Origin: a virus
Length of the DNA: 25,718 nt
Virus record (IMG/VR): IMGVR_UViG_3300047444_000128
Coordinates: 1-25,718 of that record
Reading direction: 5' to 3' (one strand)
Position 1 is the stretch's first letter. Each line of letters begins with the position of its first letter. Below the pieces are notes generated by a model. The model saw only the letters and a program-made list of their open reading frames with translations, did not search any database and had not been told where the DNA came from. Position numbers and translations under genes: made by a program. This document shows positions 1,125-16,361 of the stretch, piece by piece.

Positions 1125-1132
1125 TGGCCCCT

Positions 1133-1381: not shown

Positions 1382-1387
1382 GTCTCT

Positions 1388-1753: not shown

Positions 1754-1768
1754 TGTCAGTTCTCCTTA

Positions 1769-3061
1769 TCAGGTCGTAGCAGTATATTGAGAGACGCCGA
1801 ACATCGGCACCAGATTGACAGGATTGGCGTAGACGCGGCTGAGAGTTGTCTTGCTCATCGTCACCGCGAGACGGCCAGTACCGTTGGAGGCAATGACCGA
1901 CATCGCTGTCGCCAGACCGCCAGTGATGATCGATGTCGATAGTTGCAGTGTTCCTCGTACGTCTGCCGTGCCGTTGGAAACGGTCGTTCCGGTTATTCCC
2001 GGCACAAAACCGCTGAAGTTGGCCATGGCAACGCCATTCCATGTGGCGTAGATCTCTTCCCAGTAGTCTGCTCGCATCGGAAGACCAACCACATCACCAA
2101 TGCCGAAGGCAACAGCCTGCGAGGCGGGAACCGTGGTGCCAGACGTGATGCTGGAAATATACTTGAATGCCTTCTTCCCCATGAAGGCGGTCTGACCGGT
2201 AGCAGCAGAGATGATTTCCGTCATCGGGTTGCCCCACACATCCCATCCGGAAACCACTGCGCTGTAAGCCACCGCAATGGCCGTTACGCTCTGGATGGAG
2301 ACGTTGCGCGATGACATTTCCTTTGGATTGTAGGTACGGGCAAGACCGGCACCAAGAGGACCGCCGAAGGCATGTGCGTTGGCTACTGGATTAGACGGCC
2401 CGAATTGCGTACCGAGTGGAAGATCTCCGCTTGCAAACAGGTTGGCCTGACCGATTGGAACGTTGGACAAACCTGTGGCCGCGACCGGCAGAATGCCGAT
2501 GGTGAGGGTTCCGATCGTTGTCTGAACCTGCGTAACAAGCGAGCGCGATGCACTCGAATTTCCCGCACCGCCGATGACGATCCATTGTCCGACACGAAAC
2601 AGCGTGTTGTCGACAACCGTGACGGTCGAACTGTTGGAAACGGTCGTTCCTGTCGAATAGCCAAAATCAAGAGCAATCGCGGCAAAGGTCGCGACCGTGG
2701 TTCCGATCGGAATAATGGGAACGCCGATGGCGATGTTGGCCGCACTTGCTACACCGGCAGGCTGTGCCGTTACGAGAGAGACGGCTACAGCGGATGTAAC
2801 AATCTGGGCAGCAGATATCGATGTCGATGCTCTGGCCTGAACGATCGTGTCGATGACAAAGATGTCAGAGCCTTCAAGAAAGGCAGGCTGTTGTGCCGGA
2901 CGGAAACCGTCCTTGGCAAACGGGGCAGAGCGCAGATCCGGCTGCGCATTGCCCTGATAGAGCATGCTGGGGCCGTCGAATGGCTGCACTGCGGTCGTTG
3001 CACCATCGACCTCAAGAGCACCCATCGAGTTGACGGGACCGCGAAAATTAGTGTCAACCAT
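1769..3061 (-). CDS. Large beta-rich structural protein (430 aa)
   Basis: A 430-residue protein rich in Ala, Val, Thr, Ser and Gly, with no enzyme motif or membrane segment. The N-terminus (MVDTNFRGPVNSMGALEVDG) is followed by long alternating hydrophobic/Thr stretches. A TGTTVSN-type motif occurs twice, encoded by an identical 18-nt stretch, and related GTTV motifs occur elsewhere. It starts 18 nt after the stop of the major capsid gene. That position and size suggest a decoration, spike or second major head protein. I did not recognise a named family, so the structural role rests on context and composition. Confidence 0.8.
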   Translation of the reverse strand: MVDTNFRGPVNSMGALEVDGATTAVQPFDGPSMLYQGNAQPDLRSAPFAKDGFRPAQQPAFLEGSDIFVIDTIVQARASTSISAAQIVTSAVAVSLVTAQPAGVASAANIAIGVPIIPIGTTVATFAAIALDFGYSTGTTVSNSSTVTVVDNTLFRVGQWIVIGGAGNSSASRSLVTQVQTTIGTLTIGILPVAATGLSNVPIGQANLFASGDLPLGTQFGPSNPVANAHAFGGPLGAGLARTYNPKEMSSRNVSIQSVTAIAVAYSAVVSGWDVWGNPMTEIISAATGQTAFMGKKAFKYISSITSGTTVPASQAVAFGIGDVVGLPMRADYWEEIYATWNGVAMANFSGFVPGITGTTVSNGTADVRGTLQLSTSIITGGLATAMSVIASNGTGRLAVTMSKTTLSRVYANPVNLVPMFGVSQYTATT

Positions 3062-3078
3062 GTTGCGAAGCTCCTAAC

Positions 3079-3993
3079 TTATGCGGTCGGGAATTCGCCC
3101 CAAGCAGCGCGTGGATCATTGATGCCGAAGCTGTAGCGTTCGTAGGCCTTGACCAGCAAGTTGTCGGTCACGTTATCGACCCACATGTCGCTCTCGTACG
3201 GAATACGAAGCATGTGGATAAGGCCCTCGATATTCGTGGTCAGGAACCATGCAAAGTTTGAGGTGAGGAAGTCGAGAACGATGTGGCCTTCCGGAAGACC
3301 GCCGGACAAGGTCAGGATCGCGTTGACATCGTTATCCGCCGTGCCGGGACGAAGCTCGGTCTTTGTAAGACGGATAGCAATGCCTTCCAGATTCGGCGGT
3401 ACAACAAGGCGTCTGGCTCGAGCCAGAATTCTTAGACCGCGCTCGTTGACGAACTGAACGCGGACGTTGGTCATGTCGGCAAGAAGTGTCGATTCATTGA
3501 GTGATTTCGGCACCGATGATGTATTCGCCCATGTGCCACCGTCGAAGGGATGAACAGGCGAGAAGAAGGGCTGACCGTCGCCAACCTGAGCCGAATTGTA
3601 CGTCGTGCCCAGATTGAAGATGTTGGCCGCCTGAATTTCCTTAAACTGCGCGAAGGCTTCCTGCAGTTTGAGGTTCGTCGGATTGAACTGCGCCTTGTAG
3701 AGAAGATCGTCGATCGCCTTTCGGGTAATCGCGTAACCGAGAGCGACCTCGATATGCACGAATGCCCAAGTGAAGCGTTCGCCCGCCGCATTGTCGAATT
3801 GAGTTGCTGCGCCTTCGTCTTTCAAAAACGGCAGAGCGACAAACGCCATCTGCGTCGATCGTTCCACGGCCATCGAAGACTTGTGCGTCTTGAAGACCTT
3901 GTCCCACTGTCGCGGGATCATGTCGTAGCTGCCCCGGACGTCGAACAATCCGGGGAGCAACTCTGAGCGAATATTTGCCAGTGCGACGGGCAT
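3079..3993 (-). CDS. Major capsid protein (probable)
   Basis: A 304-residue protein with the look of a phage major head subunit. An N-terminal segment (MPVALANIRSELLPGLFDVRG) is followed by a region with FTWAFVHIEVALGYAITRKA and DDLLYKAQ, resembling the N-arm/P-domain area of Mu gpT-like capsid proteins. Later come RLVVPPNLEGIAIRLTKTEL and RPGTADNDVNAI, a pattern often seen in capsid subunits, and it ends at EFPTA. It forms the protein shell. Gene order (portal, GroES-like, scaffold candidate, then capsid) supports the call. The ATG has GGAG about 9 nt upstream. I assume the HK97 fold from general knowledge; no cleavage site is evident, and no separate protease gene is visible in the window. 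Confidence 0.85.
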   Translation of the reverse strand: MPVALANIRSELLPGLFDVRGSYDMIPRQWDKVFKTHKSSMAVERSTQMAFVALPFLKDEGAATQFDNAAGERFTWAFVHIEVALGYAITRKAIDDLLYKAQFNPTNLKLQEAFAQFKEIQAANIFNLGTTYNSAQVGDGQPFFSPVHPFDGGTWANTSSVPKSLNESTLLADMTNVRVQFVNERGLRILARARRLVVPPNLEGIAIRLTKTELRPGTADNDVNAILTLSGGLPEGHIVLDFLTSNFAWFLTTNIEGLIHMLRIPYESDMWVDNVTDNLLVKAYERYSFGINDPRAAWGEFPTA

Positions 3994-4013
3994 GGTTCAG
4001 TTCTCCTGTTGGA

Positions 4014-4604
4014 TTACGCCACGCCAGACGTAAGGGCCACGCGGTAGCGTTGGTTGTTGAAGCCGACAATCACCCAATTGTAATTCGTCGTCGTATCGGA
4101 ACCGTTTCCGATGCCGGGGAAGAACGAAATCAACTGGAAGGCTGCGGTTGTATTGACAAGGGATTGATCGACAGTGAACGTCGAAAAACCTTGACCGACT
4201 GTCGTGCCACCCGCGCCGGTCGAGTAACCGATGCAGTTTCCCATGGCAGTTGCAGGAACGGGCGTCAGAAGAGCCGCAACGCGGAACAGCGCATTCGGCG
4301 CATCGATGACGTATGCAACGGCATCCGATCCGACAGTGCCGGGAAAGTACGGCGACCATGCTGGCGTACCGCCAACTGGCGTGTACTGGCATCCGTAGAA
4401 GATACCTGAGATTGTCGTCAGCGAACCTGTACCTGTCGCTGGCGTGATGTATGGCGATGATGCAGATTTGACGACAGGGTCGCCAAACCAGATCTTCGTC
4501 GCGAAGGACGACTGGATCGCATACTTTGAAAGCTGATAGTCCGGTGCGCCACCGGGAAGGTATCCAAAGTGCTGGAACCCAAACTGTGATTGTGTATTGG
4601 CCAT
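4014..4604 (-). CDS. Virion structural protein preceding the capsid gene (196 aa)
   Basis: A 196-residue protein beginning MANTQSQFGFQHFGYLPGG, rich in Gly, Thr, Tyr and Phe, with no catalytic motif. It lies directly upstream of the capsid gene, separated by about 20 nt, and is the first gene after the structured non-coding stretch, so it may be expressed together with capsid. The start has only a weak purine-rich SD (GAAAGA). A 5-bp hairpin (4605-4619) sits against the ATG. A longer open frame on the same strand (3997-4635) has unnatural composition and is its shadow. Likely a head or decoration protein; family not recognised. Confidence 0.8.
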   Translation of the reverse strand: MANTQSQFGFQHFGYLPGGAPDYQLSKYAIQSSFATKIWFGDPVVKSASSPYITPATGTGSLTTISGIFYGCQYTPVGGTPAWSPYFPGTVGSDAVAYVIDAPNALFRVAALLTPVPATAMGNCIGYSTGAGGTTVGQGFSTFTVDQSLVNTTAAFQLISFFPGIGNGSDTTTNYNWVIVGFNNQRYRVALTSGVA

Positions 4605-4681
4605 CCGAATATCTTTCGGTCTGGCTCTGTCTCACGCCTGCGCGAGACTGAGAGTCCTGTTACCTAAGCGGCTCGCTTCGG

Positions 4682-4718
4682 TTAAAAATCCGGGTCGCGG
4701 ACTCCGCTGACCGGGATT
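4682..4718 (-). terminator. Rho-independent terminator candidate
   Basis: On the minus strand an imperfect GC-rich stem (AATCCCGGTC paired with GACCCGGATT, one mismatch, with an inner GCGG/CCGC stem) is followed at once by TTTTTAACC. A stem plus U-run is the classic intrinsic terminator. It could end or attenuate transcription coming from the sugar cassette before the capsid genes. Confidence 0.6.
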
Positions 4719-4776
4719 GGCTCAACCCATACGGCGCGTATGGGGAACATGCGAATCACAATAGATACACAAATGT

Positions 4777-4800
4777 GCGGGATGGCAAGTGCCATCCCGC
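4777..4800 (-). terminator. Perfect 10-bp hairpin after the glycosyltransferase gene
   Basis: GCGGGATGGC at 4777-4786 pairs perfectly with GCCATCCCGC at 4791-4800 around a 4-nt loop, 7 nt downstream of the stop at 4808. On the minus strand it is followed by ACATTTGTG, which is only weakly U-rich. It may therefore be a weak terminator or a 3'-end stabilising hairpin. Confidence 0.55.
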
Positions 4801-4807
4801 CTCTGTA

Positions 4808-5677
4808 TTACTCTGCAGCCTGAAGAGCCGGTATCGGCGGTAGCTCTGGCGTGACCGGAACTGCCGTAACAGGCTCCTGCGGAGGAGCGGCAATCGGCAT
4901 CGGCCCAATTGGCGTACCGCCCGAAACGCCAATGTTCTCTATCGTTTTGTCATCGAGAGCCTTGACTTCGCCCATGGGCGGTGCCTGCTCATACATGTCG
5001 AGATATCGACCGGCGTAGTCAAATGGCCCAACATGGCTCATCCTGTAGCCGATCGCTGCCCAAGTTTGTCCACCGCATTTTTGCCAGCGAAGGCAGAAAG
5101 ACAGGTCTTCCGACACAACACCACGCTCCGGTAGATCAAGCTTTTCAAAGCAGCGTATGAGACGGTTAGTGCCTGCCTGCTGCAGTGTCTGGCCTGCCGG
5201 GTGAAGTCCTAGCCGTGTGTCGATCAATTCAGGCATCTGCTCGATCATCTTTGTCACAAGATCACGCCTGATGAGTGTACATCCCATGCCAACACCCTCA
5301 ACCAGCATGAAATTGCCCCTGCGCTCCGTCTGTGTAGCGCCGGTACCTGATCCGGCCCATGAGAGAGGCATCTTTCGCTGCGGATAGATTGCACCGATCA
5401 GAGGCTCGTCGAACAGGATCATATCGGTAACGATTTCCGGCGCAAATCCCATATCGGCGTCAATGAAAAGAAGATAGTCGACAGTCGGCATGGTGTCGTA
5501 CCAAATCGTCAGTGCCATGCCACGCAATTCGGCAATATCCGGAAACGACAGTGTACTGATTCCGCCGCCCATGCCCTTTGAATTGAGATGCTGTCGCAGT
5601 GCGTGGGTGGTGAGAAACGTGGTCGCTGTAACAATCTGACCGAATGCTGGAACGAAGATAAAAACATTCTTAGACAT
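4808..5677 (-). CDS. GT-A glycosyltransferase (289 aa), end of the sugar cassette
   Basis: A soluble glycosyltransferase-like protein that would transfer a sugar from a nucleotide donor. The N-terminal strand MSKNVFIFVPAFGQ is followed by VDYLLFIDADMGF, whose DAD (residues 73-75) is the DXD metal/nucleotide-sugar motif. A later VSEDLSFCLRW provides the acidic ED pair often seen near the acceptor site of GT-A enzymes. The last 45 or so residues are Pro/Ala-rich and probably disordered. No membrane segment is present. The start overlaps the methyltransferase stop by 8 nt (ATGTCTAA). The acceptor is unknown. As the cassette gene nearest the capsid gene, a virion protein is an attractive but untested acceptor. 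Confidence 0.85.
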   Translation of the reverse strand: MSKNVFIFVPAFGQIVTATTFLTTHALRQHLNSKGMGGGISTLSFPDIAELRGMALTIWYDTMPTVDYLLFIDADMGFAPEIVTDMILFDEPLIGAIYPQRKMPLSWAGSGTGATQTERRGNFMLVEGVGMGCTLIRRDLVTKMIEQMPELIDTRLGLHPAGQTLQQAGTNRLIRCFEKLDLPERGVVSEDLSFCLRWQKCGGQTWAAIGYRMSHVGPFDYAGRYLDMYEQAPPMGEVKALDDKTIENIGVSGGTPIGPMPIAAPPQEPVTAVPVTPELPPIPALQAAE

Positions 5678-6425
5678 TTGCAGGCTCTTTCGGATTTGCG
5701 GTTAAGCTCGGTAGCGCACCTTGGCTTATTTGCATCTTGTCTGGGATCTCTTGCCAAAAGAGGCCGCTCGAAAGTGATGTTTGATCCATTGCGTTCTTGA
5801 GGATCGATGAGTAGTCGCGGGTAATCACGAAGTCAGGACCGCTTTCTATATGCTTGAACCTGATCTTGTCCTCCCACAAAAAGTAAGTATTCCACAGCTT
5901 GGGGCCCTCACGAAGCCATCCCATGATGTCTGTCTCTGTGAAGCGAATGTATTCGACAATGGGATATTTCGCGATTATCCTTAGTTCCCCCTCGTACACC
6001 CAGCAGATATTCCTGTGGTGGTGATAGCCTCTAAACGGAGGTGAAGCACCATCTACACCTCGACCCAATTCGGCGATCGGTGACGGTGTTTCGATATATC
6101 CTGCCTTCGCTACCCGTTCCATTTCCTTGATGAGAAAGAACGGATTGTACATGTCCTCGATCACATGACGGCAGTAAATGAAGTCAAAACTCTTGTCGGG
6201 AAACGGCAATGGCGTCGTATTGAGATCTAGACTGACGATCTTGTCGTTTGGCACAGGGACCGGCCTGTAATCCACGAACATCGTTGCTCGTGGAAACGGA
6301 ACATAGCCGGGACCAATTTCGAGGACTTTAGCGTCGGCTGGAAGTCTCTTGCAGAGCCAATTGACTAGCGCGTCAATCGGACCCCAGTTCTTTTTGTCGA
6401 GGTCGTTCAGAGCGTCTGACGACAT
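5670..6425 (-). CDS. Class I SAM-dependent methyltransferase (251 aa)
   Basis: It carries the Rossmann SAM-binding signature VLEIGPGY (residues 34-41), an acidic residue after strand 2 (FVDYRP) and the post-motif segment FPDKSFDFIYCRHVIEDM (about 75-92) typical of Methyltransf_11-type enzymes. The substrate is not visible; a sugar or sugar-linked group is likely given its neighbours. The ATG at 6425 has a strong AAGGAG with 6-nt spacing, which fixes the start even though it overlaps the last 53 nt of the thiamine-diphosphate enzyme gene. An imperfect hairpin (6402-6423) covers the first codons and could modulate translation. Its stop overlaps the next glycosyltransferase start. Confidence 0.85.
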   Translation of the reverse strand: MSSDALNDLDKKNWGPIDALVNWLCKRLPADAKVLEIGPGYVPFPRATMFVDYRPVPVPNDKIVSLDLNTTPLPFPDKSFDFIYCRHVIEDMYNPFFLIKEMERVAKAGYIETPSPIAELGRGVDGASPPFRGYHHHRNICWVYEGELRIIAKYPIVEYIRFTETDIMGWLREGPKLWNTYFLWEDKIRFKHIESGPDFVITRDYSSILKNAMDQTSLSSGLFWQEIPDKMQISQGALPSLTANPKEPANV

Positions 6426-8202
6426 TAAGCACTCCTTCGTTTGTGTTCATGCAGTTCGCATATTCCTCGCGTGGGAGATGCGGCCACATGTCGGATATAT
6501 CGGCGGGTTTGAATTTCCCGTCTTCCATTGCAGCCTGCACACGGGGAGCAATCAATTCATTCGGGTCCATGTGCATAACGATTACGATCGGCCCCTGATG
6601 GGATATGTCGAATATCGTGTCCATCGCATGGGATAATGCATTCAGTGAATTGAATTCCATGGTGGTGATATTGAATGCCTTCGCCACCTTCACAAAGTCA
6701 GGAAGGCTCATGCCAGATCGAGGACCGGACATCACTTCACGCTTGAAGTGATTGTTCTGTGCGATCTTCATCGTGGCATAGCCATCATTCTCGTAGACGA
6801 ATATGGCCATCCGCAAACGGTGGTGCGCAATGGTCTGCAACTCCTGCAGGTTCATCATCGCACCACCGTCACCGGTAAGGCATATCACTGGGCCACATCC
6901 GGTGAATGCCGCACCGATCGCTGCAGGTATACCCCATCCCATTGGAGATACTCCACCAGAATGGATGAGACGCTGACCTGATCGCAACTTCAGTGTCTGG
7001 AATGTCGGTATGAAGCAAAATCCAACATCAGTAACCACGATCGCATCATCGGGCATTTGATCGGCTAACTGCTCGACAACTCCGTATGAACTAATGCCAA
7101 TAGAAGGAACAGGTATTACTATTTTCTCATATTTCTTTTTCATTCCCTCGCAATGCAATGCCCACTTTTCAAATCCGGGAAACGTATATTTTTCCTTGAA
7201 AAGCGTCAGAAACTCTTTTGCATCTGCGATAACACCAATGTCAGCCCTGATGGTTGGTTTCTTGTATATTTCCGCACCGTCTACATCAACGATGATCAGT
7301 TTTGCATTAGGTGCGAACAGATCAGATGCATGGCCTATCTGCGCAACAGTCAATCTCGTTCCTATCGCAAGTATCACATCGGCATTCTGAACTGCGAAAT
7401 TACTGGCTCGATCTCCAAAGATACCACATCGACCGATATATCGGTGATGATCTGTCGGCATGATATCTGCCGCACCCCATGATGATACGACGGGAATTCC
7501 AGCCAGATAAAATACAGTCCTGAATTCCTCGACGGCATCTGCGAGCCTCACACCATTACCAACGATAACAACTGGCCTCTTTGCAGAAGACAGAACATGA
7601 ATAACTTCATCTACTGCATTGGATAGTACGTCATCTTTCCATTCCAACAATGGAGCGATTAACTCTCCCCAAAGTTCATCTGGATCAATTTCCGCAGCCT
7701 GAATGTCCAGAGGTATCTCGATTAACACTGGACCCTTGCGTCCTGTATTTGCAATTCGAACAGCTCTCTCAAGCTCAAGTTTGAGATGATTTGTCTCCTT
7801 AATAGTCGCCACATATTTTGTGATCGGCCTCATTAGAGATGGCGTGTTTAGCTCATTCATACCAACCTGACGGCAACCACTGCGACCCTTCATGGTATGG
7901 CTTGTCACCTGACCGGCAATGATCAGCATCGGAATACTGTCGACGTATGCGCAGGCAACACCAGTCATCGCATTAGTGCCGCCGGGACCAGCCGTAACAC
8001 TGACGACCGACATCTTGCCGGTAACCCTCGCTTCTGCCTCTGCCGCCATGGCCGCAGCCTGCTCGTGCTGCATCGATATGACGTGGATATTGGGATGGTT
8101 GGCTATGGCATCATTGAGATGCATCGCGCCAGCACCGCACACCCCATAGACGCGGGGGGATAGTTTGGCGATGAAGTCTGCAACGTATTCTGCAACCTTC
8201 AT
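6373..8202 (-). CDS. Thiamine-diphosphate enzyme, acetolactate-synthase-like (609 aa)
   Basis: A full-length three-domain ThDP enzyme of the acetolactate synthase/pyruvate oxidase group, normally about 550-600 residues. The Pyr domain has the catalytic Glu in ISMQHEQAAAMAAEA (E47) and TAGPGGTNAMTG. The middle domain has RPVVIVGNGVR and ILAIGTRL. The PP domain has the metal-binding motif GDGGAMMNLQEL followed about 25 residues later by ENDGY. The chemistry is decarboxylation of a 2-keto acid, possibly with carboligation. In sugar pathways the relative YerE adds a two-carbon branch to a keto-sugar, which makes a branched-sugar role conceivable here. The start overlaps the radical SAM stop by 4 nt. 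A short C-terminal extension (last 30 or so residues) overlaps the methyltransferase gene. Confidence 0.88.
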   Translation of the reverse strand: MKVAEYVADFIAKLSPRVYGVCGAGAMHLNDAIANHPNIHVISMQHEQAAAMAAEAEARVTGKMSVVSVTAGPGGTNAMTGVACAYVDSIPMLIIAGQVTSHTMKGRSGCRQVGMNELNTPSLMRPITKYVATIKETNHLKLELERAVRIANTGRKGPVLIEIPLDIQAAEIDPDELWGELIAPLLEWKDDVLSNAVDEVIHVLSSAKRPVVIVGNGVRLADAVEEFRTVFYLAGIPVVSSWGAADIMPTDHHRYIGRCGIFGDRASNFAVQNADVILAIGTRLTVAQIGHASDLFAPNAKLIIVDVDGAEIYKKPTIRADIGVIADAKEFLTLFKEKYTFPGFEKWALHCEGMKKKYEKIVIPVPSIGISSYGVVEQLADQMPDDAIVVTDVGFCFIPTFQTLKLRSGQRLIHSGGVSPMGWGIPAAIGAAFTGCGPVICLTGDGGAMMNLQELQTIAHHRLRMAIFVYENDGYATMKIAQNNHFKREVMSGPRSGMSLPDFVKVAKAFNITTMEFNSLNALSHAMDTIFDISHQGPIVIVMHMDPNELIAPRVQAAMEDGKFKPADISDMWPHLPREEYANCMNTNEGVLNVVRRSERPRQKELGSD

Positions 8203-9341
8203 AGAAATCCCATATGCGGTGGAGCAGGCGATGTCGGGAAACTAACCTCGCCTTTTTGCAATTTATCCAGCCATGAATTCGTATTCGTCTGCAGGCAATT
8301 CGGGCCGCAATTCTTCTGCGCATCGAATTCATCGCTGGCGAGATAGTTCAGAACTTCCCAGTAACGATCGCTCTGGTAGATGTCGCGAAAACGATGCGTA
8401 CAGATATTTCCGATATGGAATTTCTTGTACCGCTCATTGAATAGCTGTCCGCAAGGTGCAATCAATCCATTGCCTGACATCTGGATAATGAACGGTGGTC
8501 CGTAGCATCTCTTGTAGTCTCTACGCCCTTCATCTGCGAGGCGTGACCACTTGACGGCAACCCTGAAGCCTTCATCGCTATACGTTTCTGCCTCTTGGAA
8601 TACAGGAAAGAGCGCATCGTACTTGCGATAATCGACACCAAGATCATTATCGCGACTATCAGCCGTGTGCTTGAAGATAAGGTAGTCGGGTCGCAGCGTC
8701 TTCGCCAAGCGACATAAAGGTATAATCTGGTCAGCATCTTGTGGCATCAGGACCATCTGCATATTGATATTCACAGGCAGATTGTCTCTGTGCTTTATCT
8801 CCATGGCATCCTTGATGTTCTGAACCACGCGATCGTAGTCCCGCTGCTGCAGGCCCATGATCTCGGAATAACGCTTTCGATCTCCACCGGAGAAATTGAA
8901 CCGGAGATACGTCAGGTGCGGGAGAATTCTCTCCAGAACCTTTTTGGTCAGGCGCACACCATTTGATGACATGCCTATCTGGATGCCAAGACGTCCACCA
9001 TACTCAATCGTCTCATCGAACCACGGCACAACCGTAGACTCACCATCACTGATAAGACTGATGCCCTTGACACCGATCTCAGCAGCATCATCAAGATAGT
9101 CTAGCGCATTCTGCTTGGTAATGACCTCGCCCTCGGATGACTGCAGCTGGGCGTAACAGAAATTACACGCCGCATTGCACTTGCGCGTCCAAGCCACATC
9201 CATGGTGATGGGCGCTATGCGCTCGCCACGCTGCCATGCCTCGACACGATCGCGATACCAGCCAACCTTTGTGCCATCGAGTTGCAGATCGTGGGGAGAT
9301 CCTACGATCTTGTCGACCAGTTCCGGCATGGGTGATGTCAT
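8199..9341 (-). CDS. Radical SAM/SPASM-type enzyme (380 aa)
   Basis: The [4Fe-4S]-SAM motif CNAACNFC (C55, C59, C62) is clear, followed by GISLISDGES, MSSNGVRLT and YLRFNFSGGD, matching the beta strands of a radical SAM barrel. The C-terminal part has further cysteines at C279, C297 (NGLIAPCGQLF) and the pair C345/C349 (CGPNC), as in SPASM or twitch auxiliary-cluster domains. Such enzymes perform oxidations, epimerisations or peptide and sugar modifications; the substrate cannot be read here. It is translated with the ThDP enzyme (ATGA overlap), so the two may act in sequence. The ATG has GAAAGG 7 nt upstream. It follows a gap with a hairpin after the small gene at 9399-9782. Confidence 0.88.
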   Translation of the reverse strand: MTSPMPELVDKIVGSPHDLQLDGTKVGWYRDRVEAWQRGERIAPITMDVAWTRKCNAACNFCYAQLQSSEGEVITKQNALDYLDDAAEIGVKGISLISDGESTVVPWFDETIEYGGRLGIQIGMSSNGVRLTKKVLERILPHLTYLRFNFSGGDRKRYSEIMGLQQRDYDRVVQNIKDAMEIKHRDNLPVNINMQMVLMPQDADQIIPLCRLAKTLRPDYLIFKHTADSRDNDLGVDYRKYDALFPVFQEAETYSDEGFRVAVKWSRLADEGRRDYKRCYGPPFIIQMSGNGLIAPCGQLFNERYKKFHIGNICTHRFRDIYQSDRYWEVLNYLASDEFDAQKNCGPNCLQTNTNSWLDKLQKGEVSFPTSPAPPHMGFL

Positions 9342-9363
9342 CTTGAAACCTTTCAGGAGAATG

Positions 9364-9385
9364 CCTCCCGCATTTGCGCGGGAGG
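9364..9385 (-). terminator. 8-bp hairpin between small gene and radical SAM gene
   Basis: CCTCCCGC at 9364-9371 pairs perfectly with GCGGGAGG at 9378-9385 around a 6-nt loop, 13 nt downstream of the stop at 9399. On the minus strand CATTCTCC follows, so the U-run is poor. It is a terminator-like, attenuating or 3'-stabilising hairpin. Confidence 0.5.
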
Positions 9386-9398
9386 GGACGCGAGCGAT

Positions 9399-9782
9399 CT
9401 ACTTTTTCTTCTTGCCGTTCTTGATGAAGTCTATTGCTGCCTTGCCAGTGAGCGGCATCTTGCTCCGCTCCTTTGCTTCAGAGGCCTTGCGAGCCTTTGT
9501 CATCTGTTCAGCAACCACCGGATCTCGGCGATCGAGGAAGGACGGTATCTCAGTCTCGACCGGAGGATAGCCGATGGCTTCTGCAACCATAGCCCTGACC
9601 TCAACCGGAACCGGTTTTGGCTTGGCCATGTCCTGCACAACCAATCCAGTCTTGATCTGGGCTTCCAGCCTTCGCCTTTGCCTTTCCAGCTTTCTCAACT
9701 CATTGCTGGCACGGGTGAGGCGCTTTAGCCAACGCTTGCATGCCGCATCGACAGCACTGTGCTTTTGCTCTAGTGTGAGCAT
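9399..9782 (-). CDS. Small basic coiled-coil protein (127 aa), hairpin-flanked
   Basis: A 127-residue, Lys/Arg-rich protein. The start chosen is the ATG at 9782 (MLTLEQKHSAVD) because GGAGAAGACA lies directly before it; an in-frame upstream ATG at 9872 would read through the hairpins. Residues about 10-47 form a strongly helical segment (KRWLKRLTRASNELRKLERQRRRLEAQIK). A Pro-rich linker follows, and the end is a lysine run (NGKKKK). It has no enzyme motif and could bind nucleic acid. Hairpins lie on both sides, an arrangement like that of phage morons, although no promoter was recognised. Function unknown. Confidence 0.75.
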   Translation of the reverse strand: MLTLEQKHSAVDAACKRWLKRLTRASNELRKLERQRRRLEAQIKTGLVVQDMAKPKPVPVEVRAMVAEAIGYPPVETEIPSFLDRRDPVVAEQMTKARKASEAKERSKMPLTGKAAIDFIKNGKKKK

Positions 9783-9805
9783 TGTCTTCTCCTGATTTAC
9801 GGTTT

Positions 9806-9854
9806 CAAACAACCCGGCGGCGTCAACCGCCGGGCCAGCCGGTGATTCCGGCTG
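9806..9854 (-). terminator. Double hairpin, terminator-like
   Basis: Two perfect inverted repeats sit side by side: CCCGGCGG 9813-9820 with CCGCCGGG 9827-9834 (loop 6), and CAGCCGG 9836-9842 with CCGGCTG 9848-9854 (loop 5). On the minus strand the second stem reached is followed by TTGTTTGAAAC, a modest U-rich tail. It lies after the stop at 9866 and before the gene starting at 9782, so it may limit read-through between the heptose-like and radical SAM halves of the cassette. Confidence 0.6.
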
Positions 9855-9865
9855 ACAGGAGAAGT

Positions 9866-10054
9866 CTACCATGAGGGGTCCGTGATTTTTCCCAATTTGA
9901 TGTTTGTGGTCACGCCAGATAAGGACAACTTGCGTGTTTTCGTAAACTTGACATCAGGCTTACCAAGCTTAACTCGTGCGTTTTCCGTCGTCAGCCAGTG
10001 AAGAAACATAAGTAACTCGGGCGTATAATCAGCAATAATATTTTTATTTTGCAT
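9866..10054 (-). CDS. Small hypothetical protein (62 aa)
   Basis: A 62-residue basic protein, starting MQNKNIIADYTPELLMFLHW and ending KITDPSW. It begins 1 nt after the stop of the sugar O-methyltransferase gene and ends just before the double hairpin, so it is the last gene of that transcript segment. There is no membrane span or known motif. Tight spacing supports it as a translated gene. The function is unknown; an accessory role in the sugar cassette is only a guess. Confidence 0.55.
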   Translation of the reverse strand: MQNKNIIADYTPELLMFLHWLTTENARVKLGKPDVKFTKTRKLSLSGVTTNIKLGKITDPSW

Positions 10055-10055
10055 T

Positions 10056-11429
10056 TTAGTACGTCCCGATTTTTTCCACGCCGGACAGGGCGTCGACGAG
10101 TTTCTTAAGAGCAGGATCTCCTGTTGCCTTGTGAGCGCATGCGGCTATCCACAATATCTCTTTCGGACACAGTATGCGTCTCAGATCATTGTTCTTTGTA
10201 ACGATGCTGAGAAACATCTTTGCATTATCGACCGTCATGTCCTGACGCAGCAACTCGAGCCCTTCCAGATATGTCTCACGATTGAAAAAGCATCCCTTCA
10301 GGACTGACCAGTCGGAGAATTTCTGAACCGGAGTAGCTCGTTCGTATATCGTTTCCACAAAATCACGTCCGCAACACATCATCTTGACGAGAGTAACATC
10401 TGCAGTCTGCGATCGTGTTGCCCACGCCATGGACGGCCTTGGTGCCCAGAATGTACGGCTCTCGTGCATTGCCGTAATGGCCTGACCCATGTAATTGAGA
10501 GAATAGAAAAACCTTGGCTTATACTGATCAAGCCACGTCATATAGAACGACACCCAAGTATCGCTCATCTCCTGCATTGATCCGACATTAATAACCAGAT
10601 CGCTCATGGCTGTGTATTCGTGCAGCCTGCCGATCGGCACAAGAACAATGCGCGTTCCGGGATCTTTTCCTTCCCAGTATCCTATGTCGTCGCCCAGTTC
10701 AGCCCTTAAGCAAACTTCCGAATAAAATAGTGACTCTGGCAGATCGACGATGACGTAGCGCCGAATCTTTGCCGTCTTGTTTATCATCCAGAGGCGAGCC
10801 AGAGCGCCATAGCCGCCACCAATCTCAAGTATCCTGTCAAGCATTGGTACGTCTTCCTGACATCGGAACATGATCCGCATGTGCCAGTAGAAGACGTTAC
10901 TTGTCAGTCTCTTCTCCCCGTAACACCAGTGCAGTGTGTCTGGAATTGACTTTACATTGTCATGCAGACTGAATTGAGTTTCCAGCCTGTGCGGAAATTC
11001 CTCATTCACAAGCTTTTCGAATATCAGAAACTCAGACTTGCGTGGCTTGGCTGGTTCCCTGTGATCAAACGGTATCTTCGCCTGCGCATAATGAAGAACG
11101 TCACGGCATGTCGTGAACTGCTTTGTGTTCTCGTAGAAAGACTTCGACCATTCCAGCCATCGCGAATCCAGACATCCATCTATATCAACGACCGGAGGAT
11201 CTAGTAATCGTGCAGCCTCCAGATGCCTTCTGGCATCGGATAGAATTGTTTCGTCCCTGCCATCCCTTGGATCGCTTGCAATTGCCTCTGCCATCCACTT
11301 TTCATGCGATGCCTCAGAGTCATTGAACTTATTGCGGGCAACTGCTTCCTTCTCATAGAAGGCATCCATGTCTTCGTCATCGGCGAGCATGTAACGGTCG
11401 CCGGTATGATCGGAAACGGCAACCTTCAC
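10056..11429 (-). CDS. Putative sugar O-methyltransferase (457 aa)
   Basis: A large SAM-dependent methyltransferase. The SAM motif ILEIGGGYGALARLW (around residues 200-214) is followed by the acidic strand-2 motif YVIVDLPESLFYSE and then DLVINVGSMQEMSD. This set matches the family annotated as putative sugar O-methyltransferase (TIGR04371/NanM type, from memory), found in polysaccharide clusters. The N-terminal 170 or so residues are helical and precede the catalytic domain. I chose the GTG at 11429, whose GTGA overlaps the stop of the previous gene; an ATG at 11390 is an alternative, and the longer frame to 11510 starts inside the upstream gene. It would methylate a sugar hydroxyl during or after assembly of the glycan. 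Confidence 0.82.
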   Translation of the reverse strand: MKVAVSDHTGDRYMLADDEDMDAFYEKEAVARNKFNDSEASHEKWMAEAIASDPRDGRDETILSDARRHLEAARLLDPPVVDIDGCLDSRWLEWSKSFYENTKQFTTCRDVLHYAQAKIPFDHREPAKPRKSEFLIFEKLVNEEFPHRLETQFSLHDNVKSIPDTLHWCYGEKRLTSNVFYWHMRIMFRCQEDVPMLDRILEIGGGYGALARLWMINKTAKIRRYVIVDLPESLFYSEVCLRAELGDDIGYWEGKDPGTRIVLVPIGRLHEYTAMSDLVINVGSMQEMSDTWVSFYMTWLDQYKPRFFYSLNYMGQAITAMHESRTFWAPRPSMAWATRSQTADVTLVKMMCCGRDFVETIYERATPVQKFSDWSVLKGCFFNRETYLEGLELLRQDMTVDNAKMFLSIVTKNNDLRRILCPKEILWIAACAHKATGDPALKKLVDALSGVEKIGTY

Positions 11430-11629
11430 AGTTTTTGTCTTTCTTCCTTGGTCATGTGCATACGGAGCTTTGAGTCGTCGCCTTTGTTTTCCTTGAACAC
11501 CTCGACCCACTTACCCGGCATCAAGGCGCGAAGCAGTCTCTCATACTGCAGCATTGATGCACCCTGTACATCAGCAGGTATGTCAGATCCAAACTTGATG
11601 ACGACGTGAAGAGGATGATCAAGCGCCAT
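11426..11629 (-). CDS. Small hypothetical protein in heptose-like cluster (67 aa)
   Basis: A 67-residue protein, starting MALDHPLHVVIKFGSDIPAD and ending in a charged tail (MTKEERQKL). The ATG at 11629 has GAGG 7 nt upstream and overlaps the end of the isomerase gene by 11 nt. Its stop overlaps the GTG of the methyltransferase. The linked overlaps on both sides argue that it is translated. It has no recognisable domain and could be an adaptor for a neighbouring enzyme. Confidence 0.65.
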   Translation of the reverse strand: MALDHPLHVVIKFGSDIPADVQGASMLQYERLLRALMPGKWVEVFKENKGDDSKLRMHMTKEERQKL

Positions 11630-12164
11630 CGATAACCTCAAACAGAAAATCATGCAGGATGGCTAGGTGAACATTCTCGACAACGCCATAGCTGTGCGAG
11701 GGAACGTAGAAATTCACTCCACCCTTGCCGCGAATTTTATTATCAGGCTCAAACCCGCTCAACGTAACCACATTCATGTGCAGGCTACATGCCGTGTCGA
11801 CGGCCCTTACGATGCTTGAACTGTTTCCTGAACTGGATATGGCAAACAAAACGTCTCCAAGCCTGCCATGGCTCATCATTGGCACCCTGAACACGCTGTC
11901 ATAGCCAATATCGTTACTGATGCATGTCAATGACGCGGGATCATTGAAGCATAGCGTGGGCAAACCACCATTCTTCTGATAGTCCGCTGCCATATGGCTG
12001 GCGATCGATGCAGACCCTCCATTGCCTATGAAGATAAGCCTCGCACCGTGCGGACCAGCTGTGTCTCTCGCCATCTTGAGATAACCAGCCACAGACCCGT
12101 AGCCGTGTTCCTCGACCTCGACATGCTCCAGCGCGGATACGATGTCGTTATAGAATTGTCTCAT
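11619..12164 (-). CDS. SIS-domain phosphosugar isomerase, GmhA-like
   Basis: A single SIS domain of 181 residues, close to GmhA (about 190). The phosphosugar-binding motifs are present: FIGNGGSASIASHMAADY (residues 45-62) and ISSSGNSSSIVRAVD (109-123), with a C-terminal helix VENVHLAILHDFLFEV. GmhA converts sedoheptulose 7-phosphate to D-glycero-D-manno-heptose 7-phosphate, the first step to nucleotide-activated heptose. By-eye alignment puts H57, D61, E163 and H171 where E. coli GmhA has its zinc ligands H61, E65, Q172 and H180. Two of the four are therefore conservative changes, and a related ketose phosphate substrate is possible. It is coupled by ATGA to the upstream kinase-nucleotidyltransferase gene, the next enzyme in the pathway. 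Confidence 0.85.
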   Translation of the reverse strand: MRQFYNDIVSALEHVEVEEHGYGSVAGYLKMARDTAGPHGARLIFIGNGGSASIASHMAADYQKNGGLPTLCFNDPASLTCISNDIGYDSVFRVPMMSHGRLGDVLFAISSSGNSSSIVRAVDTACSLHMNVVTLSGFEPDNKIRGKGGVNFYVPSHSYGVVENVHLAILHDFLFEVIDGA

Positions 12165-13579
12165 GCCAAGAGCGCCTCGACAGTCTGTATGATTTCCTGA
12201 CGGTTTACATGCCGCCGATGACCTACGATCGATGTCTTGATCGCTCCTGCTATATTCCCAACGAATGCAGCCATTTGAACCGGCAGACCAGTTGCTACCA
12301 GAGGCGCACTAACCGCCATAACGGCATCACCGGCACCCATCGTATCAATTCCCCCAGACACAAATGCTGGTGCAAGACCGGCACCCTTGAGATCCATCCA
12401 CCTAGACCCAAACTTGCCGTGCGTTACGACCATCTGGTTGCACCCGGTAAGGCCGCGCAATCTCTCAATAACAATATCGATGGGATCTATCTGCATACCA
12501 GCAGCAAGTCTTGCCTCTGGATCATCAATGCATATGAATTTTGGCTTTAGATACTTGGTGACAGTATTAAAACCGTAATTCCCTGCATTGCTTTGCGAAT
12601 TAACCGCGAGAAAACGCGCCCACTCAAGAGTGTCACGCTCCTTCACTTCCAGAAGACCATGCCCAAAGTCCATCGCAATGACGACATCAGATCCTGCAAC
12701 CACTTCACTAAGTTGCTCCTGAAACTTCCTTCTCCTGACGCTGGAGAGGCACAATCTCTGCTGCGAGTAGACATCGAAGATCTTCCTGTTGAAGTCCTTG
12801 TCGACGTATCGCGTCTTCTTGACGTATTCGGTCGGTGAAATTCCCTCGGAGAACTTCCATTCACCATGTTTGCTTGCGGCAATCGCGCCGCCCTCGAATT
12901 GCTCGCATCCAACCTCTACTACGGCAAGCATCATCTCCTTGGATGATTTGCCAAGACCCTGCACATACCGGTATTCGTCGACGATCGTCTCGCCGACAAA
13001 CGATATTCTCAGCTTGTCTGCCTCGTCGAATGCCGCAAGTATGGCGCTCCTGAAATCAAGATTCTTTGCATGCTCCAGATACTTGACCACGTCCTCGGAG
13101 AACATCTCCGATTTCAGGATTGCACTTGACGATAGCTTCTCTGTGTCTGTGACCACGAGCCTGCCCCCCACTGACTCCACGGCCATTCTTTCAAGATCCA
13201 GCCCTGCATCATTGCTGCCTTTGTAATCGATTCCCTTGACGTAGATGGCGGGTTTGATTCGAGAAATGACTTCCACTGCAGATGGGCTGGAATTAATGAC
13301 GACCTCATCAACGCATGATAATGCCTTAATGGCTGCCGCCCTCTGCTCTGCTGTGAACCTTGGCCGTCCAAGTCCCTTGTCGACATATTTGTCATCCGTA
13401 ATGCTCACTACAAGACGATCGCCAAGCTTTCTGGCTTCCTGCAAATGCCTGATGTGACCGACATGCAATAGATCGAAGCAGCCGTGCGCAAGGACCGTGC
13501 GCGGTGCCGTGACGAGATGGTCGACAGACCAGACGCCGTTCAAGACCTCTTGCGCGGTTCCCACCACGCCCTCGCGCAA
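12161..13579 (-). CDS. Bifunctional nucleotidyltransferase-PfkB kinase (HldE-like, reversed domains)
   Basis: Two fused enzymes. Residues about 27-160 form an RfaE2-type nucleotidyltransferase with GCFDLLHVGH (HxGH at 39-42), GRPRFTAEQR and YVKGIDYKG. Residues about 190-470 form a PfkB/ribokinase-type kinase with VGETIVDEY, ICIDDPEAR and the catalytic GIDTMGAGDAV (D418). HldE phosphorylates heptose 7-phosphate at C1 and later adenylylates heptose 1-phosphate. Canonical HldE has the kinase first; here the order is reversed. The donor nucleotide (ATP or CTP) cannot be read. The start is uncertain: TTG at 13579, GTG at 13564 or TTG at 13543 are all possible and none changes the domains. It pairs with the GmhA-like gene downstream. 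No GmhB phosphatase or HldD epimerase is in the window. Confidence 0.87.
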   Translation of the reverse strand: MREGVVGTAQEVLNGVWSVDHLVTAPRTVLAHGCFDLLHVGHIRHLQEARKLGDRLVVSITDDKYVDKGLGRPRFTAEQRAAAIKALSCVDEVVINSSPSAVEVISRIKPAIYVKGIDYKGSNDAGLDLERMAVESVGGRLVVTDTEKLSSSAILKSEMFSEDVVKYLEHAKNLDFRSAILAAFDEADKLRISFVGETIVDEYRYVQGLGKSSKEMMLAVVEVGCEQFEGGAIAASKHGEWKFSEGISPTEYVKKTRYVDKDFNRKIFDVYSQQRLCLSSVRRRKFQEQLSEVVAGSDVVIAMDFGHGLLEVKERDTLEWARFLAVNSQSNAGNYGFNTVTKYLKPKFICIDDPEARLAAGMQIDPIDIVIERLRGLTGCNQMVVTHGKFGSRWMDLKGAGLAPAFVSGGIDTMGAGDAVMAVSAPLVATGLPVQMAAFVGNIAGAIKTSIVGHRRHVNRQEIIQTVEALLA

Positions 13580-13695
13580 CCATTTGGCAAATCTTCTGAC
13601 TTTAATTCCACATCAGAAGCGTCTTCCCATCCATTAAGGTTTTTAGCGGCAACCTTTGCCGCAATCTCTGCAATTTCCCTCATTGATAACATCAT
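13540..13695 (-). CDS. Small hypothetical protein (51 aa)
   Basis: A 51-residue frame with ATG at 13695 overlapping the stop of the glycosyltransferase (ATGA); a second ATG follows at 13692. It begins MMLSMREIAEIAAKVAAKN, an Ala/Glu/Lys amphipathic helix, then an acidic linker and a Trp pair near the C-terminus (ARAWWEPRKRS). It fills a gap of over 100 nt between the glycosyltransferase and the kinase-nucleotidyltransferase and overlaps the start region of the latter. The coupling and natural composition favour a real gene of unknown function. Confidence 0.6.
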   Translation of the reverse strand: MMLSMREIAEIAAKVAAKNLNGWEDASDVELKSEDLPNGCARAWWEPRKRS

Positions 13696-14597
13696 GCAAA
13701 CGCCTGCTTCAGTGCCGGTATGCTCGTCGGTGGCGTCAGAATACGCTGGAATGCATTGGCCAAGGCTGGATCATATCCGGGATCAGCAAATATCGCAGGC
13801 AGCATGTCCATGGCTCTCTTCTTCAAGCGAATATAACGAGGATCTTTCATGTTCATGGATGTTGATGGCATCGAGCGCACATGATCATTGAGAATGATCG
13901 ATCGCTGGTCGATCATAGAGAAATTCGCTGCCAACATGTTTTTGCGCCAGTCATCATCGGAAAGGGCAACCAGAACCTTCATGGCCTCGGAGTGCCTTAC
14001 CCTATAGCAGGCATCAAAAAAAGTCGCCCACCAAGCAGGCTCACGCATTTCCTGTGTCGGTGCAGCACGGCTCTGATCGGTTCTATGGCCGCCATAAGCA
14101 ATGCGACCAATCATCTTGCCGATGTCGTCCGTCCAGTGATCACAGAACCAGTACGGAAAATAATCAGGCTGGATATATCCCAGCAGATCCACCAGCTTTC
14201 TCGTCATTGATAGCGAACCGGTAAAACTCAGGTTGGCCATGTTGGCGTAGACAAAGCCAATTCCGTCAGGAAACCTCTTCGCCGCCTCTAGGATCTTGTC
14301 GTCGTATCCGGGTGTTACGTACGGATCGTCGTCAGCCGCTACCGTGTAGACATCGGCTGGAAGCGTCATCGCCCTGTTCCACTTTGCAGCAATCGTATCC
14401 TCGCGCTGCTGCACGTTGATCAGAACACGTTCGTGGATTTTCTGCTGTACGAGGTAGTCATATGGTGCCGGATCATCGTGATCCAGCTGAACCTGCATGA
14501 CTGTCTCTTTGTTCGTCCAGTTTGCTACTGATTTTCTGATTGTATCGCAGAGTAACTCGGGGCGACCGCGTGTCGCCAGCGAGATGACAAGCTTCAT
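13692..14597 (-). CDS. Family-2-like GT-A glycosyltransferase (301 aa)
   Basis: The N-terminus MKLVISLATRGRPELL is the first beta-alpha unit of GT2-type enzymes, followed by VYTVAADDDPYVTPGYDD with the DDD motif (residues 89-91) that binds metal and nucleotide-sugar. It has no membrane helices, so it acts in the cytoplasm. The C-terminal half (WFCDHWTDDIG, and a helical tail) is likely acceptor-specific. It opens the sugar cassette: its ATGA overlaps the stop of the probable head protein gene upstream, tying cassette expression to head-gene expression. Donor and acceptor are unknown; a heptose-type donor made by the next genes is the simplest idea. Confidence 0.85.
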   Translation of the reverse strand: MKLVISLATRGRPELLCDTIRKSVANWTNKETVMQVQLDHDDPAPYDYLVQQKIHERVLINVQQREDTIAAKWNRAMTLPADVYTVAADDDPYVTPGYDDKILEAAKRFPDGIGFVYANMANLSFTGSLSMTRKLVDLLGYIQPDYFPYWFCDHWTDDIGKMIGRIAYGGHRTDQSRAAPTQEMREPAWWATFFDACYRVRHSEAMKVLVALSDDDWRKNMLAANFSMIDQRSIILNDHVRSMPSTSMNMKDPRYIRLKKRAMDMLPAIFADPGYDPALANAFQRILTPPTSIPALKQAFA

Positions 14598-15361
14598 TCA
14601 CCCGGCTCCGCTAGCTTGTGTGACGGGGCTGGAGCATCCAGTGCCCGGTCGATCGACATGCGAATATCGCCACCAGTACCGCGATATTGCTTTCCCATCT
14701 CAAAACCGTCACCCATGCTCTTGCGCAAACCGGAAAGCTTGAGAGACTCGTTTCGATCAGAGATCAATTGCTTTGCAAGACGCAATTCTTCGGCGCGAGC
14801 CTGATTTCCCATCTCTTCAGGACGCTCCTCAAGCCGCATGCCTCCGCGAACAATCTCACCCTTTGCACCCGGCTGTATGAGAATTCCTGCATGCCTTTCG
14901 GCAGGAACAGATCGCCATCCGCTTTGATACATGTACTGCATCTGGTCGCGGGCGATATCGTTATTTCCAGTTACAGAAACAGTATTCCACTGATATTCCC
15001 AGCCTTTTGGTATCATACTATTTGGCACATCGAACTGATCATGCGAGTGAAGATTGCCGCGAGTAAGAACCTCGCCGCCGCGACCAATAAACTCAGTCCT
15101 GCCATTGGAGCGAACAGGAATGGCTCTGGCCGCAGCGACGGGCTCTGCAGGGGAGGCAACACCCTGCACACCCTCATTAAACTTGTCAGCTAACTTCTTC
15201 TCGATCTCTTCGCGTTGCGCTGCTTGCATTGCTGCATACCCATCATCGGCTGGCTGCTGTACCTCCGCTGCACGTTTTGCAGCCTTGGCCGCTCTGGCCT
15301 TTTCTAGATTGGCACCGCGTACCTGCTTGATGTCTGTGGTCTTCTGGATTTCGTCTTCCAT
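14594..15361 (-). CDS. Probable head-associated protein (255 aa)
   Basis: I chose the ATG at 15361 (MEDEIQKTTDIKQVRG), with GAGG 6 nt upstream; the longer frame to 15535 runs through the previous gene. Residues about 15-60 are an Ala/Lys/Glu helix. A central globular part follows, with NSMIPKGWEYQWNTVSVTGN and QMQYMYQSGWRSVPAERHAG, a pattern I associate with unnamed proteins encoded next to portal and capsid genes in many phages. The C-terminal third is helical and charged. It sits directly before the sugar cassette. A virion or assembly role is likely, but no precise function can be given. Confidence 0.72.
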   Translation of the reverse strand: MEDEIQKTTDIKQVRGANLEKARAAKAAKRAAEVQQPADDGYAAMQAAQREEIEKKLADKFNEGVQGVASPAEPVAAARAIPVRSNGRTEFIGRGGEVLTRGNLHSHDQFDVPNSMIPKGWEYQWNTVSVTGNNDIARDQMQYMYQSGWRSVPAERHAGILIQPGAKGEIVRGGMRLEERPEEMGNQARAEELRLAKQLISDRNESLKLSGLRKSMGDGFEMGKQYRGTGGDIRMSIDRALDAPAPSHKLAEPGE

Positions 15362-15368
15362 GACAACC

Positions 15369-16361
15369 TCACTGCGTGTCGTAGGTGCGGTCGTATTGAC
15401 CGGATGCTTCCATTGCTCTCTTGCGGCGGGCGAATTCCTCAACACCGATCGGATCGCCCTTCTTGAACCGCTTTTTCCCTGTCGGATCGTCATAATTCCA
15501 GATGTGAGTACCGTCGACTGCTGCCGCTGCCTCAAAGGCCCGCAGCGTCACTATCTTCTTTTCCACGGCACCACCTGATCCAGCTGATCCATTCACTGGA
15601 GCCACCGCACGTTGCGCCTGTTTCTTCGGCTGCTCCGCACCCGGCCTTCGAACATCGTCGCCCTCCGTCACCGGAGCTTCTGCCTTCCTGATCCCGATAA
15701 ATTTCTCAACATGCTCGAAATAAGCCGCCGTATCCGGTGTCAGACCCTCCGCAACGGCATCATGATGACCGGCGGTAAGCTTGGCATTCTTCCTGCCATC
15801 GAGGATGTATTCCTTGTGCTCTCGCAGCCACTTTGCTGTCGGCTCAGAACGGTTAGCAACGTACGACTCGACGATGTCGACCGGAGATGATGGCGCATCC
15901 CGTCTAGGCGCATTCTTTCTCGCCTCGATATTCGATTTTGCTTCATCGTAAGTGCGCAAATCAATGCGGGCCTGATTCATTCGATCGGCTGCGTCGACCT
16001 CTGCCTCTGCGTCTCCGCTTTGTTTTGCTGCGAGCACATCGCGTTTTGCGGTATCGAGCGCAGCCTGTGCGCCAGCCAATGCTGTCGTAATTGTATCCAG
16101 ATTGGACGATGTCGCTGCCTCACGAGCCGCCTGTACTTCACGTCTCGCAACTGCTGCTGCATTCTCTGCCTCCGTAGCGCGGACTAATGCAGCATCTCTA
16201 GCCTCCTGATCGGCCTTCGACCTTGCCTCAAGTTCCTTGTACTGCTCCGATAAATCCTTGACCGGATCTTTCGTGGCAGCAGGCTCAACAGGATCAGGAT
16301 CGATCTTGATAATTACATCAGGGAGACTGTCGGAAGTCGGCACATTCGGTTCTTCTGGCAT
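15369..16361 (-). CDS. Candidate scaffolding protein, coiled-coil (330 aa)
   Basis: A 330-residue, highly charged protein. The N-terminus is acidic and Pro-rich. Residues about 38-150 form an almost continuous Ala/Glu/Arg coiled coil (EARSKADQEARDAAL and onwards). A mixed region with KWLREHKEYILDG follows, then a basic C-terminus (GKKRFKKGDPIGVEEFARRK). Internal scaffolds usually have a long helical rod and a basic capsid-binding tail, and they are encoded between portal and capsid, as here. The ATG at 16361 is favoured over the GTG at 16364 because GGGAGG lies 5 nt upstream of it. The assignment is by composition and context, not by sequence family. A tape-measure-like or internal virion role is less likely at this length. 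Confidence 0.6.
   Translation of the reverse strand: MPEEPNVPTSDSLPDVIIKIDPDPVEPAATKDPVKDLSEQYKELEARSKADQEARDAALVRATEAENAAAVARREVQAAREAATSSNLDTITTALAGAQAALDTAKRDVLAAKQSGDAEAEVDAADRMNQARIDLRTYDEAKSNIEARKNAPRRDAPSSPVDIVESYVANRSEPTAKWLREHKEYILDGRKNAKLTAGHHDAVAEGLTPDTAAYFEHVEKFIGIRKAEAPVTEGDDVRRPGAEQPKKQAQRAVAPVNGSAGSGGAVEKKIVTLRAFEAAAAVDGTHIWNYDDPTGKKRFKKGDPIGVEEFARRKRAMEASGQYDRTYDTQ

Follow-up and report, generated by a model that had tools for sequence, protein, structure and literature searches.

Gene layout and insertion site of the cassette

The window analysed here, the complete 25,718-bp stretch of the IMG/VR record IMGVR_UViG_3300047444_000128, comes from an uncultured tailed phage and is probably a fragment of a larger virus genome. 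Nearly all of its genes are on the minus strand, in the order TerS, a GDSL-like lipase gene, TerL, a portal-sized gene (itself without a PHROG match), GroES, scaffold-type genes, a cassette of sugar-related genes, preMCP, the gene for the major capsid protein (MCP) and further probable structural genes. Our subject is the cassette, about 9.8 kb on one strand (4808-14597), which is best explained as a sugar module, adapted to phages and spread by horizontal movement, that sits inserted among the genes of the head operon. The initial annotation had recognised eight enzyme genes there, on one strand between the scaffold-type genes and the capsid gene, and all eight are present on the minus strand at or close to the places it gave; a separate 196-aa gene, preMCP (4014-4604), intervenes before the MCP gene (3079-3993, phrog_371).

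Assignments of the cassette genes were backed by Pfam, PHROGs and NCBIfam. In the direction of transcription the cassette begins with GT1, a glycosyltransferase with a DDD motif (13692-14597; phrog_14945 glycosyltransferase, E 1.8e-9), whose start overlaps by 4 bp the stop of g17 (14594-15535), a scaffold-type or unknown gene with an annotated start that is probably too early. An HldE-like fusion (12161-13579) and a GmhA-like enzyme with a SIS domain (11619-12164) follow, and the stop of the latter is overlapped by F1 (11426-11653), which encodes a 75-aa partner of the radical S-adenosylmethionine (SAM) enzyme. MT1 (10056-11510) is a sugar O-methyltransferase by TIGR04371, matched over residues 182-336 and above the NCBIfam cut-off, and its true start lies after the F1 stop. 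Beyond two small open reading frames (ORFs), g22 (9866-10054, no family match) and g23 (9399-9872, no family match above threshold), are the radical-SAM enzyme (8199-9341; PF04055/PF13186), a thiamine-diphosphate carboligase resembling YerE and JanthE (6373-8202), the class I methyltransferase MT2 (5670-6425; PF08241) and the phage glycosyltransferase GT2, with a DAD motif (4808-5677; phrog_1574, phrog_34859). The motifs and PHROG names of GT1 and GT2 suggest a GT-A fold for both. A terminator-like GC-rich inverted repeat of 10 pairs (4777-4800) after GT2 closes the cassette. Most of its genes overlap a neighbour by 4-53 bp, and the coupling overlaps that had been described for the upstream edge therefore extend through most of the cassette. 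Four small unknown genes had also been described, F1, a real small gene, having been missed.

A capsid-protein search gave 80 relatives. Among 45 with less than 75% capsid identity the median gap between g17 and preMCP is 277 bp, and a single gap is longer than 1.5 kb; in relatives that lack the cassette the homologues of g17 adjoin preMCP. The same gap holds the cassette core in 17 of the 24 relatives at or above 75%. Of the remaining close relatives, two have GT1 and GT2 in the gap, one (L015) GT2 alone and one (L016) GT2 with an FkbM-type methyltransferase; the gap of L017 has one gene without assignment, and no cassette gene was detected in those of L018 and L027. These contents suggest that the stretch between g17 and preMCP is an insertion site and that GT2 is its most persistent gene. 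That the cassette might be an assembly chimera, as the initial annotation had allowed, is ruled out by another IMG/VR record, L001, which is identical to the window from TerL into part of MT1, and by the same synteny in the 17 close relatives. Fourfold-degenerate positions differ in 49-83% of the conserved codons of the cassette genes, the proteins being 50-90% identical, and synonymous sites so near to saturation beside conserved proteins indicate that the enzymes have long been kept by selection.

The one distant relative with a long gap, L031, carries at this site a different, unrelated-looking insert of 6.8 kb (1132-7963), and a Pfam search on six of its ORFs gave no match. The capsid protein of the window is 89-97% identical among phages in which TerL, portal and postMCP are 35-80% identical. 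Its synonymous sites are strongly diverged, so that a capsid gene exchanged recently is not the favoured reason for the high identity, and the protein appears to be under exceptional constraint.

Proposed activation, oxidation and branching of the sugar

GmhA- and HldE-like enzymes belong to the synthesis of lipopolysaccharide (LPS) heptose, and the isomerase and kinase/nucleotidyltransferase of the cassette would produce an activated sugar, probably one derived from heptose. The best PDB matches of the SIS-domain enzyme are phosphoheptose isomerases, and it exceeds the cut-off of PF13580; against NCBIfam PRK00414 it scores 90 bits (cut-off 265). In the HldE-like fusion the families are as first annotated, but the domain order is inverted, with the nucleotidyltransferase first (PF01467, residues 31-155, HxGH at 39) and the PfkB kinase second (PF00294, residues 345-450, GAGD at 415), and the NCBIfam equivalog score is 111 bits where 521 is the cut-off. 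Among 25 module-bearing phage records, which may be incomplete and some of which are fragments, an HldD-type, NAD-dependent epimerase of the short-chain dehydrogenase/reductase (SDR) family (PF01370) is absent from 23, and only two have SDR and DegT genes. The modified heptose-like sugar of the initial annotation finds partial support here. These matches could also mean that the cassette only boosts a donor like ADP-heptose, the thiamine and radical-SAM genes serving something else. We regard this as rather improbable; besides the missed cut-offs, the inverted fusion and the epimerase lacking from most records, the thiamine, F1 and radical-SAM genes occur together with the isomerase and nucleotidyltransferase in unrelated phages and in one bacterial operon.

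The initial annotation had listed the thiamine and radical-SAM enzymes but left them unused; they point, as far as sequence can tell, to carbon branching of a keto-sugar and not to a plain heptose. The thiamine enzyme has a GDG motif and matches JanthE best in the PDB (8rph, E 3.6e-112, 379 bits), followed by 5ahk (292 bits) and Escherichia coli acetohydroxyacid synthase (AHAS) I (239 bits). By these scores it is nearer to YerE-like than to AHAS sequences, and an AHAS function, for which no small subunit was noted, is the less likely. JanthE, one of the YerE-like enzymes, attaches acyl groups to ketones, and the substrate that YerE itself branches is a CDP-keto-sugar (PMC12247030). Acceptance of ketones is known only for the decarboxylase-type (YerE-like), E1-alpha/beta-type and transketolase-type superfamilies of thiamine-diphosphate enzymes, and both YerE-like and alpha-keto-acid-dehydrogenase-type (E1-alpha/beta) enzymes make branched sugars (PMC12247030). 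It is these two types that replace each other in the thiamine slot of the module, the E1-alpha/E1-beta pair being found in relatives only, in many loci (PF00676 and PF02779 in L005). The known YerE-like enzymes and the E1-alpha/beta enzyme KbDH serve LPS or antibiotic sugars, whereas the enzyme of the window is phage-borne; no report of phage-borne branching enzymes of either type was found in the literature.

The radical-SAM enzyme has the CxxxCxxC motif, with C55, C59 and C62 invariant in 44 aligned rows. It had been annotated as radical SAM/SPASM, of which the first part stands; in the same 44 rows only four extra cysteines are invariant in the C-terminal domain (C279, C297, C345 and C349), which makes this domain twitch-like and not a full SPASM domain with two auxiliary clusters. 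The fold of its AlphaFold2 model (pLDDT 90.6) is nearest to DesII, then to SuiB, SkfB, BlsE and BtrN. With TDP-quinovose, DesII converts a hydroxyl of the TDP-sugar to a ketone (PMC11434129), and BtrN, which likewise has one four-cysteine auxiliary cluster, oxidises an aminocyclitol (PMC9012708). DesII, BlsE and BtrN all act on carbohydrate substrates and share the fold of the window enzyme, from which they differ in sequence (13-15% identity) and by the F1 partner on the window side. It would be an economical reading that the radical enzyme forms a ketone at which the thiamine enzyme then adds the branch. The scarcity of SDR and DegT genes fits a ketone made in this way with no need of either, or a pathway that draws on the host.

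F1 and the spread of the module

F1 is matched by its hidden Markov model (HMM) at E 5e-31 in the window, and its profile matches 68 of the 73 radical-SAM stretches fetched, some of which overlap on one contig. It was seen without the radical-SAM gene only on contigs that end before that gene, and in relatives its end is often the start of that gene. The two are thus linked by co-occurrence across phages. F1 has a strand-helix-strand core and a C-terminal motif DDSKLRxxMTxEQRxKL; it gave no Pfam, PHROG or fold match, nothing in the PDB fold search being below E 0.3. In bacteria an unannotated protein of about 360 aa is encoded upstream of the same radical-SAM enzyme, and in searches of six such sequences F1 matched always at the extreme C-terminus (E 1e-8 to 4e-5). 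F1 may therefore be a reduced form of this partner protein. As a small gene adjoining a SPASM/twitch enzyme, with a strongly conserved C-terminus and with SuiB and SkfB among the top fold matches of that enzyme, F1 might instead encode a precursor peptide that the radical-SAM enzyme matures, in the manner of ribosomally synthesised and post-translationally modified peptides, the sugar genes decorating the peptide or a metabolite. This seems to us very doubtful; the relation of F1 to the C-terminal domain of a larger protein makes it look like a partner domain, and neither cysteine, leader nor protease was noted.

The core of the module is the inverted HldE-like fusion, the GmhA-like isomerase, a thiamine enzyme, F1 and the radical-SAM enzyme. 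The search for the same gene set in other phages that the initial annotation had proposed found it not only in the close relatives but also in unrelated phages. The radical-SAM enzyme is present in 49 viral contigs, many with unrelated backbones, where its companions are a nucleotidyltransferase, mostly a kinase, a SIS isomerase and a thiamine enzyme. The module is usually a neighbour of head or packaging genes in these phages; it lies between portal and scaffold, with capsid also alongside, in the podovirus-like L109, adjoins TerL/portal in L114 and L096 and the portal in L143, and is next to capsid/protease in L116 and L119. In a tree of the radical-SAM enzyme one change separates the F1-bearing phage enzymes from the rest, and backbone and thiamine type each change at least four times, these counts being approximate since the tree was made by a quick method and has some long branches. 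In the isolated phages of INPHARED, radical-SAM matches did not exceed 30% identity, and that over a short stretch; across most of the protein the identity was about 24% or lower, and neither an F1 match nor such a module was found. In L150 (4855-5853) and L152 (870-1829), which are other phages, the nucleotidyltransferase and SIS isomerase are fused in one frame, and no radical-SAM gene was detected nearby.

A contig pattern scan had suggested that the radical-SAM module is nearly absent from bacteria, and this was overturned by wider HMM searches, which show bacterial forms that are real, if uncommon. At E 1e-60, homologues of the enzyme occur in 16 of 392 genomes of a Planctomycetota sample and in 6 of 385 of the class sampled around a Rhizobiales metagenome-assembled genome, counts in which many matches are distant and one is a phage contig. 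Several of the bacterial homologues examined sit among glycosyltransferase, SDR and DegT genes. The plasmid operon HUE56_RS00850-RS00795 of Azospirillum oryzae has SDRs, an inverted HldE-like fusion, SIS, E1-alpha, E1-beta, two DegT aminotransferases, an F1-related protein and radical SAM; it shares with the module all but the SDRs and DegT aminotransferases, and differs further in being bacterial, in a NUDIX gene and in a partner of 360 aa where the phage form has about 66. From this glycan context, the phage module is probably a streamlined bacterial surface-glycan pathway.

Possible attachment of the sugar to virion proteins

We lean, at close to an even chance, to the view that the cassette is a selectively maintained set of genes making a carbon-branched sugar that is attached to virion proteins. 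The SIS isomerase and the kinase/nucleotidyltransferase would supply the activated sugar; the radical-SAM enzyme, with F1, would oxidise a hydroxyl to a ketone; the thiamine enzyme, of the YerE-like type here and E1-alpha/beta in relatives, would add an acyl unit to the ketone to give the carbon branch; the methyltransferases would cap the branched sugar; and soluble glycosyltransferases, GT1 and GT2 here and sometimes GT41 in relatives, would transfer it to virion proteins being made at the same time.

The choice of acceptor depends on the surroundings of the module. PF13844 (GT41) is found in nine of the 25 module-bearing records, including three from the lineage of the window itself, and both of the GT41 proteins tested (L109 and L116) have tetratricopeptide repeats. 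The GT41 members characterised so far glycosylate proteins (PMC3012730). In L116, L117 and L119 the GT41 gene starts at most 25 bp from the end of the gene for F3. This name covers large repeat proteins in L098, L111, L116, L117, L119, L124, L127, L129 and L131. Ser+Thr make up 26-32% of the four that were measured, and the one searched against PHROGs had no match. F3 abuts the sugar module in several loci, often near GT41, and may be regarded as a candidate virion protein only. In the window itself the glycosyltransferase genes are near structural genes, as they are in relatives, and g35 (3-506), the start of a protein with ITNASLTAL repeats that is cut by the window end, is speculatively a possible glycan acceptor. 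It has 10 NxS/T motifs against 4.3 in shuffles; this enrichment was not found in the F3 proteins, and we have not used it as support for N-glycosylation. A repeat protein with ITNASLTAL-type repeats in L003 (5350-6261) is NxS/T-rich, as is g35.

The sugar might instead be destined for the host envelope, where changing LPS, or some other glycan of the cell surface, in the course of infection could block superinfection or help to free virions from receptor-bearing debris. No GtrA flippase was found in the 25 records, which may be incomplete, only three have a tyrosine integrase, and the cassette, which sits with late head genes, has no clear membrane protein; together with the protein-type GT41 in nine records, these observations are at odds with such a role, to which the LPS association of GmhA- and HldE-like enzymes and the surface-polysaccharide clusters around the bacterial homologues would lend themselves. 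YerE-like enzymes too are known mainly from LPS sugars (PMC12247030). On balance we think envelope remodelling unlikely, though worth serious attention. The preference of the initial annotation for virion glycosylation is upheld to the extent that head and packaging placement, GT41, its position behind a Ser/Thr-rich protein in three contigs, the missing GtrA and the few tyrosine integrases appear to favour it. A sugar placed on modified DNA bases for the evasion of restriction is improbable. DNA-acting phage glycosyltransferases are known, according to the citation of Pyle et al. 2024 in PMC12619734; against this, the thymidylate-synthase/hydroxymethylase family occurs in one of the 25 records, a Tet/JBP search that had no positive control gave no match, and the cassette is placed among head genes. 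The lack of GtrA, the few integrases and the rarity of the thymidylate-synthase family weaken both the envelope and the DNA readings.

Several observations count against a branched sugar on virion proteins. The sugar product and its acceptor are both read from gene content; DesII and BtrN are related to the radical-SAM enzyme at the level of the fold only (13-14% identity), and the peptide-modifying SuiB and SkfB are also among its high-ranking fold matches. The SDR and DegT genes of the bacterial operons are missing from most phage records, and the sugar may accordingly be simpler or host-dependent; the bacterial versions themselves lie within gene clusters for surface polysaccharides. Within the window there is no GT41, the GT2 profile gave no match against the PDB, and no obvious added domain is seen in the capsid genes of phages that carry the cassette.

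Phage virion glycosylation is already known. In mycobacteriophages such as Che8 a glycan is covalently attached to the major capsid protein and is reported to act as a shield against antibodies (Freeman et al. 2023, as cited in PMC11256854). The likeness to these phages lies in phage-encoded glycosyltransferases; in the Che8-related Maravista these are near the 3' genome end, whereas the window has a dedicated sugar-synthesis pathway, predicted from its genes, inside the head operon. The branched-sugar pathway would be the new element. We found no matching report of ADP-heptose or radical-SAM glycosylation cassettes in phages, or of a phage branched-sugar pathway. It is possible, though we hold this with some reserve, that the pathway is phage-specialised and horizontally exchanged, built around the radical-SAM enzyme and a shrunken F1, with the branched sugar made solely for virion proteins and two unrelated thiamine types repeatedly swapped at the branching step. 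If so, some environmental phages spend about 10 kb of a genome of probably 65-70 kb on a rare sugar for their own particles, phage virion glycosylation is chemically richer than is now recognised, and a role for virion sugars beyond animal immunity is suggested. Enzymology would gain thiamine carboligases already exchanged for one another in nature, together with a new pairing of radical-SAM enzyme and partner, and A. oryzae, a cultured bacterium with a homologous operon, offers a place where the chemistry can be tested.

Other genes of the window and its relatives deserve mention. A GroES-like co-chaperonin gene (16372-16800) is part of the head operon and is kept in most relatives, and a gene for a lipase-acylhydrolase of the GDSL/SGNH type (23243-23908) lies upstream of TerL. 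The extended cassette of L007 includes a TROVE/Ro60-like protein with a von Willebrand factor A domain (7081-8385).

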